The position numbers and the translations under genes were made by a program. Positions 16,911 through 48,149 of a DNA stretch of 64,000 bases are shown here, in pieces. The DNA comes from Metallumcola ferriviriculae (lineage in GTDB: Bacteria; Bacillota; JADQBR01), in contig NZ_CP121694.1 of the NCBI RefSeq assembly GCF_035573695.1, positions 2,456,501-2,520,500 on the forward strand. Reading direction: 5' to 3'. Each line of letters begins with the position of its first letter. The stretch's first letter is position 1. The notes beneath the pieces were generated by a model. That model was not told the DNA's origin. It saw only the letters and a list, made by a program, of their open reading frames with translations, and made no database searches.

Positions 16911-16977
16911 GGGGTGTCAGGCACCAATAAGTGACAAATAAGTGACAAACGGTGTCAGGCACCCATAAGTGACACTT
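16911..16977. repeat. Intergenic repeat, subfamily 2 (double-core copy)
   Basis: Two direct copies of GGTGTCAGGCACC, each followed by AATAAGTGACA or ATAAGTGACA, separated by one further AATAAGTGACA. It shares its core with the 47-bp family but has the other arm type. The copy lies between panB and the U32-like gene. Confidence 0.85.
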
Positions 16978-33883: not shown

Positions 33884-35077
33884 CTAACACCCCCCAGGGG
33901 ATAACTCATTGCCAACAATAGAGATAAAGCAAACGCACTGCCAGGGAAAGCCGCCCAAATTATGAGTCAAGGCAAGCTTAGCGTCCGGGAGCTGCCGTTG
34001 GCCTGCCCGGCCCTGGAGTTGGAGGTGCGCCTCATACAGCATCCTAAGGCCGCTGGCACCGATTGGGTGGCCAAATGATTTAAGGCCGCCATCGGGATTA
34101 ACCGGTAGTTCTCCTTCCAAATCAAAGACACCGTTGAGTACATCTTGCCAGCCCTTACCCCGGGCACTAAAGCCCAAGTCTTCGTAAATTACCAATTCCG
34201 TCGGCGTAAAACAATCATGCACCTCTGCCATACTCAATTCCTTCCGGGGATCGGTAATCCCGGCCTGGGAATAGGCATCCTTAGCAGCGGCACAATTTTC
34301 CGGAATGGAAGTAAAATCAAATTCCGGATAAAGGATACCGGTGCCGGGACCGCTGGATACTGCCAGTGCTTTAACGTAGGTAGGATTTTTGACATACTTT
34401 TTCGCATCCTCAGCCCGAACAATTATAGCTGCCGCCGCACCATCCGCTACGCCGGAACAGTCCAACACGCCTAAGGGCGATGCCACCATAGGCGAGGCAC
34501 AGATTTTTTCCAGCGGTATTTCCGCTCGATATTGGGCCTTAGGGTTAAGGGCACCGTTTTTATGATTTTTCCAGGCAATTCTCCCCAATACTTCTTTACC
34601 TTTTTCCTGCTCCAGCCCATATCTATTAAAATATGCCGGGGCCAGCAGCGAAAAAGCCGCAGGTGCCGTGATGTCCGGTCTGGTACCGTCGTCAGCGGGT
34701 TCCGTCAGCGTCAACCCGCTGTAGCCTGAATCCTTTAGTTTTTCCACACCCACCGCCATCACCACGTCATATGCCCCGCTGGCTACCGCATAACAAGCAT
34801 TTCGAAAAGCCTCCGAACCAGTCGCACACATATTCTCAACCCTGGTTACCGGCTTGTATTGCGACTTGAGCGGCCCGGAAAGGAAGAAGCCCGCCAGGCC
34901 TGATTGCATAGTGCCGAGCCAGTATGCATCCACCTGGTCCGGCTGAATACCGGCATCATTATATGCCTCGTATGCGGCATCAACCATCAGATCAGCGGCA
35001 CTTTTATCCCAGTGCTCACCAAATTGGGTGCAACCCATACCGATAACGGCTACCTGATCTTTAATTCCCTTACTCAT
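33884..35077 (-). CDS. Thiolase (SCP-x/acetyl-CoA acetyltransferase family)
   Basis: This 397-residue thiolase-fold enzyme has its nucleophilic Cys84 in ENMCATGSEAF. VHDCFTPTE and the C-terminal SFGHPIGASGLRMLYEAH carry the other active-site residues. It cleaves a 3-ketoacyl-CoA with CoA. The ATG at 35077 overlaps the stop of the upstream HMG-CoA-synthase-like gene by eight bases. Thiolases of this group often need a DUF35 partner, and the neighbouring protein carries such a domain. Confidence 0.9.
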   Translation of the reverse strand: MSKGIKDQVAVIGMGCTQFGEHWDKSAADLMVDAAYEAYNDAGIQPDQVDAYWLGTMQSGLAGFFLSGPLKSQYKPVTRVENMCATGSEAFRNACYAVASGAYDVVMAVGVEKLKDSGYSGLTLTEPADDGTRPDITAPAAFSLLAPAYFNRYGLEQEKGKEVLGRIAWKNHKNGALNPKAQYRAEIPLEKICASPMVASPLGVLDCSGVADGAAAAIIVRAEDAKKYVKNPTYVKALAVSSGPGTGILYPEFDFTSIPENCAAAKDAYSQAGITDPRKELSMAEVHDCFTPTELVIYEDLGFSARGKGWQDVLNGVFDLEGELPVNPDGGLKSFGHPIGASGLRMLYEAHLQLQGRAGQRQLPDAKLALTHNLGGFPWQCVCFISIVGNELSPGGC

Positions 35078-36491
35078 TGACCTCACCTCGCTTTGGCACT
35101 GCCTTCCAGAAGTAATTGCTGACGCCGCCAACGCTGTAAAGACGCCGGAAAGTAAACTGCACCCGCTCACCAATTTTCACCTGCTGCTCGGGACAGTCAG
35201 TCACCTCCGCTAACATCCTGCCGCCGCCATCAAAGTCTACCACAGCAAAAATGCTTGGCGGCGCCGGAGACGCAGCCAGGTAGTCCGCCGTAAAGGTCAC
35301 TACCTTACCGTCCTTACCACGAAATGAATATTCCTCCATCTCATCCTTAGCCCGACAATGTACACAAACCCGTTGTTTCGGGAATTGGGCCGTGCCGCAG
35401 TTGGTACAGCGGCAGCCCTCGAAGCCAAGATTTTGCTGATTGTTTCGATAGAGCGCTGGCTGCGACGGCACCTGTGTTTCCGGCCGCCGTGGCGGCTCAG
35501 TATCTATCAGACCCCGCCATTTGAGATAGGCGGTATACTGCAGTTGGTCATCCTTTTGAGCCAACTGTTCTGCCAAAGTATGACGCGGGTCATATTTAGC
35601 GATATTGTCCGTTACTTTCATTGTGACAATATCACACCCCTCGCCAAAGGCCACAACTAAGATACGATCGCCGCTTTTTGCTTCACTTAAGCCCTTGGCC
35701 AGCATCATGGACGCAGCTGCAGCACCGGTGTGCCCAACCATTTCCAAAATACCGCTTACAAGCTGCTCCCTATCCAATCCCAGCATCTTAGCCACTGTCA
35801 GCTGCAGTTTAGGTGTCGGGGCATCGATAATCACCTTTTGAAAATCCCCGACACTAATGCTATGCTCAGTGGCAAACTGACCCAGTGCCGATACTACTAT
35901 TTTTGCATATTTGCTGCCGGAAAAGCGGTCCTCGGCAGTTTGTAAAAATTTATCCTCATTCCCCCGCCAGTAGCCCTGCAGTTCCTGATTGAAGCTTTCG
36001 CAGTGCTCAATTTCGGCGATTACATCTTTATCATCCAACAAAAACGCACAGCCGCCATCGCCAAGCACCTGTTCATAAGCACTCTGAGGCGCAGCCAGAC
36101 GGCAGTCCGCTGATGTAACCAATACCCTTTTACCACCCGCAGCCAAATCAAAACCAGTGATTAAAGCCGCTATGCCTGACCGAAGACTTCCGCCCATTTC
36201 AATAGTACGAACATCCTGCCGTAGCCCCAACGCGGCCGCCATGGTACCACCCGATCCCTTTTCCCGATACGGCGCCGTGGTGGTGGCAAAGAACAGCGCG
36301 TCAATATCTCTAGCATCATTACCGGGCAGACAATTCATGCCTGCGTTTACCGCCATGGAGACACTATCCTCATCGAAATTCGCTACCGCTCTTTCACCTC
36401 TACCCGTGGGCATCCCCCAGGCACCGCTGATGTTTTCCCTTTTCATCCGGAAATAAGGAACCCATGTTCCATATCCACTAATACCGGTCAT
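35070..36491 (-). CDS. HMG-CoA synthase-like protein fused to a C-terminal zinc-ribbon/OB-fold (DUF35) domain, no active-site cysteine
   Basis: This 473-residue fusion has thiolase-superfamily residues of HMG-CoA-synthase type over the first 310 (FFATTTAPYREKGSGGTMAAAL; EMVGHTGAAAASMMLAKGL). The C-terminal domain has a four-cysteine ribbon (CRCTNCG...RVCVHC) and an OB-fold (VVTFTADYLAASPAPPSIFA). The segment aligning with the catalytic NACYGGTAAL reads GSLRSGIAAL, and no Cys occurs from residue 55 to 129. It probably serves as a partner or non-condensing module for the coupled thiolase. The domain set resembles the BbsA/BbsB pairing of benzylsuccinate beta-oxidation. Confidence 0.85.
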   Translation of the reverse strand: MTGISGYGTWVPYFRMKRENISGAWGMPTGRGERAVANFDEDSVSMAVNAGMNCLPGNDARDIDALFFATTTAPYREKGSGGTMAAALGLRQDVRTIEMGGSLRSGIAALITGFDLAAGGKRVLVTSADCRLAAPQSAYEQVLGDGGCAFLLDDKDVIAEIEHCESFNQELQGYWRGNEDKFLQTAEDRFSGSKYAKIVVSALGQFATEHSISVGDFQKVIIDAPTPKLQLTVAKMLGLDREQLVSGILEMVGHTGAAAASMMLAKGLSEAKSGDRILVVAFGEGCDIVTMKVTDNIAKYDPRHTLAEQLAQKDDQLQYTAYLKWRGLIDTEPPRRPETQVPSQPALYRNNQQNLGFEGCRCTNCGTAQFPKQRVCVHCRAKDEMEEYSFRGKDGKVVTFTADYLAASPAPPSIFAVVDFDGGGRMLAEVTDCPEQQVKIGERVQFTFRRLYSVGGVSNYFWKAVPKRGEVNE

Positions 36492-36549
36492 TCCTACCTT
36501 CCCCCCCTTTTATTTAGTTCTGAAAGCTTATTTCTATTACTAATGCGAG

Positions 36550-36613
36550 TTATCCATACGTTATCCATACGTTATCCATATGTTATCCAAAGGTTATCCA
36601 CACGTTATTCACA
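36550..36613 (+). repeat. Array of six DnaA-box-like nonamers at exact 11-bp spacing
   Basis: Nonamers at 36550, 36561, 36572 (TTATCCATA, three times), 36583 (TTATCCAAA), 36594 (TTATCCACA, a consensus DnaA box) and 36605 (TTATTCACA, also within TTATNCACA). All run head-to-tail and share one helical face. Flanks are AT-rich. The array lies 59-122 nt upstream of the HMG-CoA-synthase-like start. Confidence 0.8.
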
Positions 36614-36677
36614 AACCATTTAGAATAAAGTTAATAAGTCAAAAATCAGAACAGCTTTGTTGAATCGACTGAATAAT

Positions 36678-36724
36678 GAATAACTTGACAAAAAGGTGCC
36701 TGACACCATTTTGTCAAGTTATTG
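36678..36724. repeat. 47-bp palindromic intergenic repeat, subfamily 1
   Basis: Core orientation GGTGCCTGACACC. It ends one base before the SDR stop codon. Confidence 0.92.
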
Positions 36725-36725
36725 C

Positions 36726-37538
36726 TTAAGCGTAGAAACCGCCGTCTACTTTTAGCACTTCACCGTTGACGTAATCGGAAAAGGGTGAGGCCAGGTAGAA
36801 GATGCCGGAGGCGGCCTCTTCGACGCTGCCGGGGCGGCGCTGAGGGACCATCTTCAGCATCATGGAACGTATCTGGTCTGGGATGCCGACTGCTTTGCCG
36901 TCTACGGTCTCGCCCTGTTCTTTAGGACGCGTGAGACGAGTATCCACGATACCGAAGGCTACGGCATTGCAGTTAATGTTAAATGCGCCCCATTCCTTAG
37001 CTACGGTCTTGGTAAGTCCGACTAGTCCAGCCTTGGCTGCTGAGTAATTGGCCTGACCCACGTTACCCATTAGGCCGGCAACTGAAGTGACATTGACTAT
37101 CTTGCGCTGGACTGTTTCCCCCCGGGCGATCTCTTCCCGGGCCTGGTCACGCATGTAGGGTGCTGCCGCTCTGATCAGACGAAAGGGTGCCAAAAGATGT
37201 ATATCCAACATGGCCTGAAACTGTTGGTCATCCATTTTGTGCACCATACCGTCCCAGGTATAACCGGCATTATTAACTAAAATATCCAGTCGGCCAAAAG
37301 AAGAAATGGCAGTCTCCACTAATTTGGCTGGAAAGTCCGGTTGGGTGATGTCGCCGGCCAATACCGCTGCCTCAGCGCCCGCCGCTTTTGCTGCAGCCGC
37401 TGCTTCGTTTGCTGGCTCTTGGTCCTTATCGGCAATTACTACCCTAGCCCCTTCCCGGGCAAACATTTCCGCCACCGCTCGGCCGATACCTCGTCCGGAC
37501 CCGGTGACTATTGCGACTTTATTATCTAAATATCCCAT
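36726..37538 (-). CDS. Short-chain dehydrogenase/reductase (3-hydroxyacyl-CoA dehydrogenase type)
   Basis: This 270-residue Rossmann enzyme has cofactor motif VTGSGRGIGRAVAEMFAREG, NNAGYTW and active site NVTSVAGLMGNVGQANYSAAKAGLVG (Ser, Tyr, Lys present). DKDQEP after beta-2 suggests NAD(H). The ATG at 37538 follows AAGGAGG. Next to two MaoC hydratase genes it most likely oxidises the 3-hydroxyacyl-CoA of a beta-oxidation sequence. It is the last gene of the operon from 38462. Confidence 0.9.
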   Translation of the reverse strand: MGYLDNKVAIVTGSGRGIGRAVAEMFAREGARVVIADKDQEPANEAAAAAKAAGAEAAVLAGDITQPDFPAKLVETAISSFGRLDILVNNAGYTWDGMVHKMDDQQFQAMLDIHLLAPFRLIRAAAPYMRDQAREEIARGETVQRKIVNVTSVAGLMGNVGQANYSAAKAGLVGLTKTVAKEWGAFNINCNAVAFGIVDTRLTRPKEQGETVDGKAVGIPDQIRSMMLKMVPQRRPGSVEEAASGIFYLASPFSDYVNGEVLKVDGGFYA

Positions 37539-37589
37539 CTGTATAACCTCCTTGAAACTCAATGTTACTTTCATTCATTACATATAGCG

Positions 37590-38734: not shown

Positions 38735-40168
38735 TCAGCAGCTAATATCAAACTTTCTTATTTTCTCATAGAGCGTGGAGCGGCTCATGCCTAACAGCTT
38801 AGCAGCACGAGATTTATTGCCCTCAGCATTTTCCAGCGCTTCGATGATTATCTCCCGTTCCTTACGCTCCACCACCGCCATCATATTGACCACAGCACCG
38901 GGGCCCCGATTTGGCACAGACTGCAATTTGTCAGGCAGGTCTGTTTGCGTTATTTTACCAGACTCAGCAAAAATCATCGCCCGCTCCATAATATTTCTCA
39001 GCTCACGAATATTACCCGGCAAACGATAGCCCATCAGAATCCCCAGAGCATCGTCGCTAATGCCTGTCACCCCTGTATTGAGTGTTTGATTCAATTCCTT
39101 GATAAAATAGTCAATTAGGCTGGGAATATCCTCCCGCCGGTCCCTTAACGGGGGCATGGTAAAGTTAACCACATTGAGGCGGTAAAACAAGTCCTCCCGA
39201 AATTTTTTCTGAGCCACCAGAGTTTCTAACGGCTGGTTCGTAGCGGCAATTACCCGCACATCTACAAAGACCTTTTCCGTGCCGCCCACCCGGTAAAATT
39301 CTTTCTCCTGCAGCACCCTCAGTATCTTTGACTGCAGTGAGGGCGACATATCGCCGATTTCATCCAAGAAGAGCGTGCCGCCGTGAGCCATGTCCAGCTT
39401 ACCGAACTTACCCTTTTTACTGGCACCGGTAAATGCACCCTCATCATAGCCAAAAAACTCAGATTCCAACAAATGCTCCGGTATTGCGGCGCAATTGACC
39501 GTAATAAAAGGTCCGCCAGCCCTTTGGCTGGCCTTATGCAGGGCATGGGCAAACCACTCCTTGCCAGTACCGCTTTCCCCCTGAATCAAGATAGTAGAAC
39601 TCTGACGCGCTGCCTTTTGGGCCATGGTTACCATCCGAGAAACCGAAGGTGTGCTGTCCAATAATTCTCGAAACGAGTACTTAGAATGCTGCTTCAATTT
39701 CACCCGGCGAAGTTCTTCCTGAGTCGCCTCTAAAGCCGCCTCTAAGCGTTTCTTAAGCTTAAAAGACTCGCCCATTAAGTACTGGATTAAACCTTCCTTC
39801 GTTACCACACCGGAAAGATATTCCCCACTCTTATCTGTAACAATGACCGTGCTGATTTTCCCGAAGTTAGTGTTACGCTTGGTGCCTAAAAATTCACCGA
39901 AGAGCTTCTCCACATCGTAAAACTCATCCTCAGGCACCGTCACCACCTGACGATAAAAATGCGGCTTAATTTCCGTATCCAGCGGCTTTCTTTCCCTTAC
40001 CAAGTTAAGCAGCATGGAACGAGTAAAAATCCCCAGCAAACGTCCCCCGGCATCAGTTACCGGCAGAATATTTAAGCGGCATTTGCTCATCGCTTTAATA
40101 GCTGTATCCAGAGTGCTGTCTGGGTGTATAGTGGCCTGGAACGGTTCCATAATATCCTTGGGTTTCAT
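38735..40168 (-). CDS. Sigma-54-dependent activator with N-terminal CBS pair
   Basis: This 477-residue enhancer-binding protein has two CBS motifs in the first 135 residues (DIMEPFQATIHPDSTLDTAI; VIVTDKSGEYLSGVVTKEGL). A short coiled linker, the AAA+ domain with GESGTGKE, GAFTGA and GGTLFLDEIGDM, and a Fis helix-turn-helix (NKSRAAKLLGMSRSTLYEKI) follow. CBS pairs usually bind adenine nucleotides or CoA-type ligands, so energy or acyl-CoA status could be the signal. AAGGAGG precedes the ATG. The gene lies directly upstream of the sigma-54 promoter at 38.58 kb, its likely target. Confidence 0.92.
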   Translation of the reverse strand: MKPKDIMEPFQATIHPDSTLDTAIKAMSKCRLNILPVTDAGGRLLGIFTRSMLLNLVRERKPLDTEIKPHFYRQVVTVPEDEFYDVEKLFGEFLGTKRNTNFGKISTVIVTDKSGEYLSGVVTKEGLIQYLMGESFKLKKRLEAALEATQEELRRVKLKQHSKYSFRELLDSTPSVSRMVTMAQKAARQSSTILIQGESGTGKEWFAHALHKASQRAGGPFITVNCAAIPEHLLESEFFGYDEGAFTGASKKGKFGKLDMAHGGTLFLDEIGDMSPSLQSKILRVLQEKEFYRVGGTEKVFVDVRVIAATNQPLETLVAQKKFREDLFYRLNVVNFTMPPLRDRREDIPSLIDYFIKELNQTLNTGVTGISDDALGILMGYRLPGNIRELRNIMERAMIFAESGKITQTDLPDKLQSVPNRGPGAVVNMMAVVERKEREIIIEALENAEGNKSRAAKLLGMSRSTLYEKIRKFDISC

Positions 40169-41471: not shown

Positions 41472-41598
41472 AGCCAACTCTTGCGACCAACTCTTCCAGC
41501 CACTATTCCAGCGAACTATTCAGGCTAACTTTTCCAGCCACTACTCAAGCCACTATTCAAGCGAACTTCAAATCAACTATTCAAGTCAACTATTTTTA
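41472..41598. repeat. Degenerate 12-13 bp tandem repeat
   Basis: About ten imperfect units of the form CCAACTATTCAAG or CCACTATTCCAG, running directly on from the half palindrome. The unit length varies between 11 and 13 and no frame is kept, so it is not coding. Confidence 0.75.
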
Positions 41599-43584: not shown

Positions 43585-44160
43585 TTATGCGGGCACGAAA
43601 ATTATCTGCCCTGGGAATATCACATTTGGGTTGGTGATCTGCGGATTTGCGTTTAATATTGCCTGAACGGTCGTATTGAACCGCTGCGCAATCAAAAACA
43701 GCGTATCTCCGCGCTGCACCACATACCGTATAAATCCGGGAGGCGGTGTAGGCGTCGGTGTTGGTGTTGGTGTTGGTGTGGGTGTAGGTGTAGGTGTTGG
43801 AGTTGGAGTTGGTGTGGGCGTTGGACCGACAGGTATTACGATTATCTGCCCTGGGAAAATCAGATTAGGGTTGGTGATCTGAGGGTTTACTGCAAGTATT
43901 GCCTGCACCGTGGTATTAAATTGTCTGGCAATAATCGTCAATGTATCGCTCCGCTGCACCACATATGTCACCTGACCCGGCGGTGGCGGCGGTGGTGCTG
44001 TTGGCCCCGGCGGGCTGACCGGAATCGTGATTACCTGCCCCACAAAAATGAGGTTAGCGTTAGTAATGCGCGGGTTTGCCGCAAGTATTGCCGCAACCGT
44101 GGTTCCAAACCTTTGGGCAATAAGGAAAAGAGTATCGCCACGTTGAATAACGTACTGCAC
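43585..44160 (-). CDS. Triple-LysM protein with (Pro-Thr)n linker
   Basis: This 191-residue protein has three LysM modules, each of the form YVVQRGDTLFLIAQRFNTTV...ILNANPQITNPN...IFPGQIIFVP, at about residues 2-48, 65-111 and 145-190. A linker of about twelve Pro-Thr pairs separates the last two. There is no signal peptide, as in spore-coat or intracellular LysM proteins of sporeformers. LysM binds peptidoglycan or chitin-type glycans. The start is a GTG at 44160 behind GAAAGGAGG. It is cotranscribed with the small single-LysM gene just upstream. The repetitive linker DNA is prone to length change. Confidence 0.9.
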   Translation of the reverse strand: MQYVIQRGDTLFLIAQRFGTTVAAILAANPRITNANLIFVGQVITIPVSPPGPTAPPPPPPGQVTYVVQRSDTLTIIARQFNTTVQAILAVNPQITNPNLIFPGQIIVIPVGPTPTPTPTPTPTPTPTPTPTPTPTPTPPPGFIRYVVQRGDTLFLIAQRFNTTVQAILNANPQITNPNVIFPGQIIFVPA

Positions 44161-48033: not shown

Positions 48034-48117
48034 CTACCGGTGGACTTTTTAAACATCCTTACCTTAACAGAAAACAGTTAACACCGAGGTGTAGTTACAA
48101 TAACCTACACTAACTTA

Positions 48118-48149
48118 CAATAACTTGACAAAAAGGTGCCTGACACCAT
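48118..48149. repeat. Truncated copy of the 47-bp intergenic repeat
   Basis: Left arm and core GGTGCCTGACACC only; the right arm is replaced by TATAAAACAAG. Confidence 0.85.

Follow-up and report, generated by a model that had tools for sequence, protein, structure and literature searches.

A tandem array of six DnaA-box-like nonamers in a lineage-specific block of an acyl-CoA operon of Metallumcola ferriviriculae: a candidate DnaA-binding site

Structure of the locus

The analysed window (64,000 nucleotides, C1:2456501-2520500 of the single 3.72-Mb contig of Metallumcola ferriviriculae, G000) contains an operon encoded entirely on the - strand, in which genes for two MaoC proteins, a short-chain dehydrogenase (SDR), an HMG-CoA-synthase-like protein, a thiolase and an acyl-CoA dehydrogenase follow one another (MaoC and acyl-CoA dehydrogenase were named from sequence alone, without a domain scan). 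The SDR and synthase genes are separated by a block that harbors six nonamers, an AT-rich spacer and a palindrome:

35070..36491, - strand: HMG-CoA-synthase/KAS III-like gene fused to a ChsH2-type zinc ribbon and OB domain; immediately downstream
36492..36725, unstranded: 234-bp block between the SDR and synthase genes; 17 bp at this place in the relative G001
36550..36558, + strand: DnaA-like box 1, TTATCCATA, one mismatch (sequence, pattern search)
36561..36569, + strand: DnaA-like box 2, TTATCCATA, one mismatch (sequence, pattern search)
36572..36580, + strand: DnaA-like box 3, TTATCCATA, one mismatch (sequence, pattern search)
36583..36591, + strand: DnaA-like box 4, TTATCCAAA, one mismatch (sequence, pattern search)
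36594..36602, + strand: DnaA box 5, TTATCCACA, perfect; identical to the 9-mer of this genome's oriC boxes
36605..36613, + strand: DnaA box 6, TTATTCACA, perfect to TTATNCACA (sequence, pattern search)
36614..36678, unstranded: AT-rich spacer from array to palindrome, 27% G+C
36679..36725, unstranded: interspersed palindrome of REP-like type, AACTTGACAAAAA-GGTGCCTGACACC-ATTTTGTCAAGTT; adjoins the SDR stop codon on its downstream side; 13-nt core with 106 genomic copies
36726..37574, - strand: SDR gene, immediately upstream, same operon

The nonamers are located on the same (+) strand and start at 36550, 36561, 36572, 36583, 36594 and 36605, i.e. at a pitch of exactly 11 bp; compared with TTATNCACA, two are perfect and four deviate by one mismatch, at position 8, and the spacers are 2 bp throughout (CG, CG, TG, GG and CG). 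The array was called independently by TRF (period 11, 5.5 copies, 89% match); the six unidirectional nonamers of 11-bp period and the two exact consensus matches (boxes 5 and 6) reported by a first-pass annotation of this DNA are thereby confirmed. Its description of the flanks as AT-rich applies strongly to the right one (27% G+C), but not to the same degree to the left one (38%; window 45.6%). From left to right, the units read GTTATCCATAC, GTTATCCATAC, GTTATCCATAT, GTTATCCAAAG, GTTATCCACAC and GTTATTCACAA; the two leftmost are identical and the rightmost are the most diverged from them. Judged by these sequences, the boxes are plainly copies of one unit and, hence, do not represent six independent observations; the identity of copies 1 and 2 fits recent slippage.

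A distance of 58 bp separates the array from the synthase start codon downstream of it. Regular direct repeats of one helical turn at such a distance, together with the gene of a sigma-54-type activator close to the array (38735-40168), could point to the operator of another transcription factor that reads 11-bp direct repeats in an iteron-like manner; however, no second copy exists elsewhere in the genome and nothing ties a regulator to the array, which makes this alternative hardly credible.

Comparison with relatives

In G001, the nearest relative with the operon, the gene order is the same, the synthase is ~57% identical and the gap between the SDR and synthase genes comprises 17 bp. An alignment-based scan for the synthase yielded 76 loci, of which only L344 carried this operon with a similar degree of identity (SDR 73%, synthase 56% identical, 17-bp gap); these figures match those of L071, so that L344 probably derives from the same species as G001 and is not a second independent relative. 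No DnaA boxes were found at the SDR-synthase junction in G001/L344, and the position of the array is thus not conserved there (one relative compared). The first-pass annotation had made its reading depend on the retention of the array in close relatives; the array is absent from G001, the one relative compared, which is not a congener.

Its further proposal that the array occupies the promoter region of the operon is not supported by the short, box-free gap in G001 and by the search for a sigma-70-like promoter on the operon strand, which found none. According to this comparison, the array and the surrounding block are lineage-specific and not a conserved promoter; as the nearest relative has no such block, conservation offers no argument for a function. 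Since palindrome copies are numerous in this genome, gain of the block in M. ferriviriculae is a simpler reading than its loss in G001 (one relative only).

Read on the operon (-) strand, the palindrome at 36679-36725 has the appearance of an intrinsic terminator, and it resembles REP/RAYT-type palindromes in being short and present in >100 genomic copies. An Rfam search with it gave sub-threshold miRNA matches only, which were rejected, and no family name for its core was found in the literature, where matches to the core were unrelated. Two sub-families share the core GGTGCCTGACACC and differ in their arms (AATAACTTGACAAAA or AATAAGTGACA); copies are dense at ~2.36-3.0 Mb, often in tandem, and the cores in the window are positioned at 16913, 20107, 36695, 41441, 44572, 48135 and other sites. 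The DnaA-like array does not belong to this repeated element, since the other palindrome copies are not accompanied by it. For this reason, and because the co-location of array and palindrome carries little weight given the intergenic preference, an origin of the array by REP insertion was rejected.

Host DnaA, oriC and chromosomal position

The genome contains a single DnaA_C match, at 313 kb. This DnaA possesses all canonical domains, including a domain IV with the box-reading motif GGRDHTTVIHA, and the rpmH-dnaA intergenic region (oriC) carries four TTATCCACA boxes. The nonamers of the array match the specificity of the cognate DnaA, with two of the six being perfect, and their geometry would suit a DnaA oligomer; the DnaA-like character assigned to them beforehand is thus supported, as is the absence of a nearby dnaA or rep gene. 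No initiator or helicase-loader gene adjoins the array, the neighboring genes examined being metabolic or regulatory.

The sampled GC skew changes sign between 280 and 380 kb, where the origin and dnaA are located, and at 2.18-2.26 Mb (terminus). It is constant across the locus (-0.145 in the stretch before, -0.155 in the window, -0.156 in the stretch after), and no switch was found at the array. The suggestion of a cryptic origin, or of a relic one acquired, e.g., from a phage or plasmid, is therefore unsupported: similar arrays do exist in Escherichia phage P483 and in a microvirus, in the latter beside a replication-initiator gene, but a plasmid search with the 234-bp block gave no DNA match, the phage matches were array-sized only, and the surrounding genes constitute one metabolic operon common to the relative, with DnaA encoded elsewhere. 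We regard an origin, active or relic, as highly improbable.

Box clusters in the genome and in the phylum

Isolated nonamers of this type showed no excess in the window (15 seen versus 14.1 expected), so that the signal to be explained is their tandem arrangement. The six-box array is unique in the 3.72-Mb chromosome. Outside of it, a box pair at the exact 11-bp pitch was found only at C1:191684 in the whole genome (a few more with one mismatch allowed), and two perfect same-direction boxes within 39 bp exist only in the array and at 3,488,404, in a cluster 3' of tsaD. With its two perfect and four one-mismatch boxes within ~200 bp outside oriC, the array stands well above genome background. 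In 1.264 Mb (34% of the chromosome, sampled as stretches for the cluster ranking and the survey of tandem units), the highest cluster score was that of the tsaD 3' flank (22), followed by the array and oriC (10 each) and by a cluster at 191.5 kb (9). A scan for other clusters, as the first-pass annotation had advised, thus left the array unique and level with oriC in the 34% sample, but outscored by the tsaD-3' cluster. The fourth-ranked cluster of the sample (C1:191554-191880, L423) consists of two near-identical repeats, each with AAATTATCCACAACCCATAATTTCCTA, and a TTATTCATA/TTATTCACA pair between them.

The tsaD-3' cluster of this genome (G000 C1:3488271-3488421; L459, L420) comprises 8 strict TTWTNCACA boxes. 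In the 420 bp at and after the tsaD stop codon of 30 phylum genomes (L463-L492), the mean was 2.3 strict boxes, compared with 0.065 per 420 bp elsewhere in these loci; at least three strict boxes, nearly all in one orientation, were present in 13 of the 30 sampled genomes, and the clusters often carry the pair TTATCCACATTATCCACA. In Bacillus subtilis, a DnaA-box cluster lies downstream of gcp and ydiF (PMC4447404). The tsaD-3' cluster looks like a phylum-wide counterpart of this site, and it is a better candidate than the array for a conserved off-origin DnaA locus. Same-direction box triples with spacers of 0-8 bp were detected in 46 of 398 phylum genomes versus 3 for a reversed-pattern control; among the 30 triple loci fetched, those placeable by homology are situated 3' of tsaD or at oriC. 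Another case of six units at strict 11-bp pitch was absent from the matches listed for the 398 genomes.

These data also bear on the proposal that the array titrates DnaA or controls its activity in the manner of datA, DARS or DBC sites and thereby tunes replication initiation. Loci of the datA/DARS type combine DnaA boxes with IHF or Fis sites and control the nucleotide state of DnaA. Indeed, few box clusters of the sampled genome are as dense as the array, and deletion of all six off-oriC DnaA-box clusters of B. subtilis affects initiation (PMC5295017); however, located at 2.493 Mb, i.e. ~1.54 Mb from oriC and ~0.25-0.3 Mb from the skew-inferred terminus, the array is late-replicating, it is not conserved, and the genome already has the conserved-type tsaD-3' cluster. 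A titration or activity-control site is thus improbable. In sum, the roles of promoter element, origin and titration site are weakly supported or contradicted.

Tandem duplication and DnaA likeness

A close rival to a DnaA-box array is a neutral short tandem repeat, in which replication slippage duplicated the unit GTTATCCATAC within the AT-rich intergenic block beside the REP-like palindrome and the DnaA likeness is incidental; it retains a substantial share of probability, short of an even chance. The near-identical, head-to-tail copies (89% match, copies 1 and 2 identical), their absence from G001 and the lineage-specific nature of the block are what such a repeat would display. Furthermore, short tandem arrays recur beside GGTGCCTGACACC palindromes (41487-41594, 48095-48131 and others), with about one third of the sampled array calls within 90 bp of a core, compared with 1.3% of the sample within 100 bp of one, and the genome G180 offers a parallel in four exact TTATCCAAAGA copies that also adjoin an inverted repeat. 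Against this, several arrays next to REPs themselves consist of REP arms, and arrays and palindromes alike are found preferentially between genes, which leaves the association weak for the array in question; moreover, two of its copies are perfect boxes, one being exactly the oriC 9-mer. Two other repeats of the window were recorded: an array of 13-bp period at 41487-41594 (CCAACTATTCAAG, 8.7 copies, 73% match, 33 bp from a palindrome core) and a GGTGTT-type 6-bp repeat at 43745-43824 (13 copies, 36-bp higher-order period).

When the 22 listed short tandem units (period 8-22, from 1.26 Mb) were shuffled, 0.245 DnaA-like arrays, defined by a unit that differs from a DnaA box at no more than one position, were expected by chance, and one was seen; none of the other 21 listed units came within one mismatch. 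The DnaA resemblance of the array is accordingly suggestive, statistically short of overwhelming. With a relaxed DnaA box, all 5 minimal inter-copy changes fell in tolerated columns or in the spacer (chance 0.006, post hoc), while the strict consensus gave a non-significant 0.129; the outcome of this constraint test hinges on the consensus chosen.

Comparison with known DnaA-box arrays

Like the array, the off-origin DnaA-box clusters (DBCs) of B. subtilis (e.g. gcp/ydiF, ywcI/vpr, sda) are intergenic multi-box clusters away from oriC, and some of them regulate neighboring genes (PMC4447404, PMC5295017). In contrast, the DBCs are bound in vivo, and that at gcp (tsaD) has phylum counterparts, whereas the array is lineage-specific, predicted from sequence and composed of weak boxes in four of six positions. 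The finding that only 8 of 269 B. subtilis regions bound by DnaA in vitro were bound in vivo (PMC4447404) counts against the DnaA-box reading.

The low-affinity arrays of Escherichia coli oriC and boxes 3-5 of Thermotoga maritima share with the array the same-direction arrangement of strong and weak boxes (PMC10316083, PMC4285127). In E. coli oriC, strong boxes are the nucleating ones and the weak boxes between them serve as a scaffold (PMC4285127); in T. maritima, DnaA pairing was maximal when same-direction boxes were separated by 2 bp (PMC10316083). Unlike these, the array is positioned off the origin, an unwinding element alongside is not demonstrated, and its six almost identical units point to tandem duplication.

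Phage arrays (Escherichia phage P483, microvirus PQ006258 and many IMG/VR contigs) likewise consist of 3-6 same-direction boxes with mostly 2-3 bp spacers; both spacers were 2 or 3 bp in 82 of the 100 same-direction triples examined in viral contigs. A viral control pattern, TATTNACA, was discarded because it overlaps TTATTCACA, and the reversed-pattern control was used instead. The phage boxes, however, are nearly all strict TTATNCACA, stand in a phage context and have no flanking sequence in common with the array; nearly all keep the C at position 8 that four of the six array boxes do not have, which counts against a DnaA reading of the latter. The tandem arrays of P483 and of the microvirus with the adjacent initiator gene (L461, 390-457; L462, 417-474) are unannotated.

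Four same-direction DnaA-type boxes of mixed strength were also observed in the yabQ-divIC intergenic region of G076 (L109, ~1500-1545), a sporulation/division neighborhood. They resemble the array in combining weak boxes (TTATCCATA, TTATCCAGA) with two TTATCCACA at 2-3 bp spacers off oriC, and differ in the adjacent genes, the unrelated surroundings, the number of boxes and the lack of regularity over six units.

Proposed model and implications

The exact oriC 9-mer at box 5, the 2-bp geometry and the recurrence of such arrangements in phages and in G076 favor the reading as a DnaA site; on sequence grounds, binding of DnaA is plausible. With moderate confidence, we propose a mixed-affinity DnaA-box array that arose by tandem duplication, is probably bound by DnaA and has at most a local transcriptional effect. 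The array would have grown by local duplication inside the lineage-specific intergenic block that split the acyl-CoA operon, resulting in a compact cluster of four weaker boxes and, to their right, two strong ones, all oriented alike and one per 11 bp. DnaA-ATP would most likely occupy the two strong boxes first and then spread head-to-tail onto the weak ones. A filament that stops 58 bp before the synthase start codon may hinder transcription of the synthase, thiolase and dehydrogenase genes when DnaA-ATP is high; the consequence of the array, if any, would thus most likely be local. A more far-reaching version, in which a lineage-specific DnaA filament site was inserted into a catabolic acyl-CoA operon and the DnaA-ATP level (cell-cycle or energy state) sets the expression of its downstream half, appears rather unlikely.

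If the array is not bound, it would warn that a DnaA cluster can be imitated by a short tandem repeat. If it is bound, its six sites would form a clean natural ladder on which to test how DnaA, at 2-bp spacing, advances from strong boxes onto weak ones, and it would exemplify the de novo origin of a DnaA operator through tandem duplication within an operon. Should the filament site indeed govern the downstream genes, DnaA-box arrays of 11-bp pitch would represent evolvable regulatory modules, with tandem duplication as their mode of growth.
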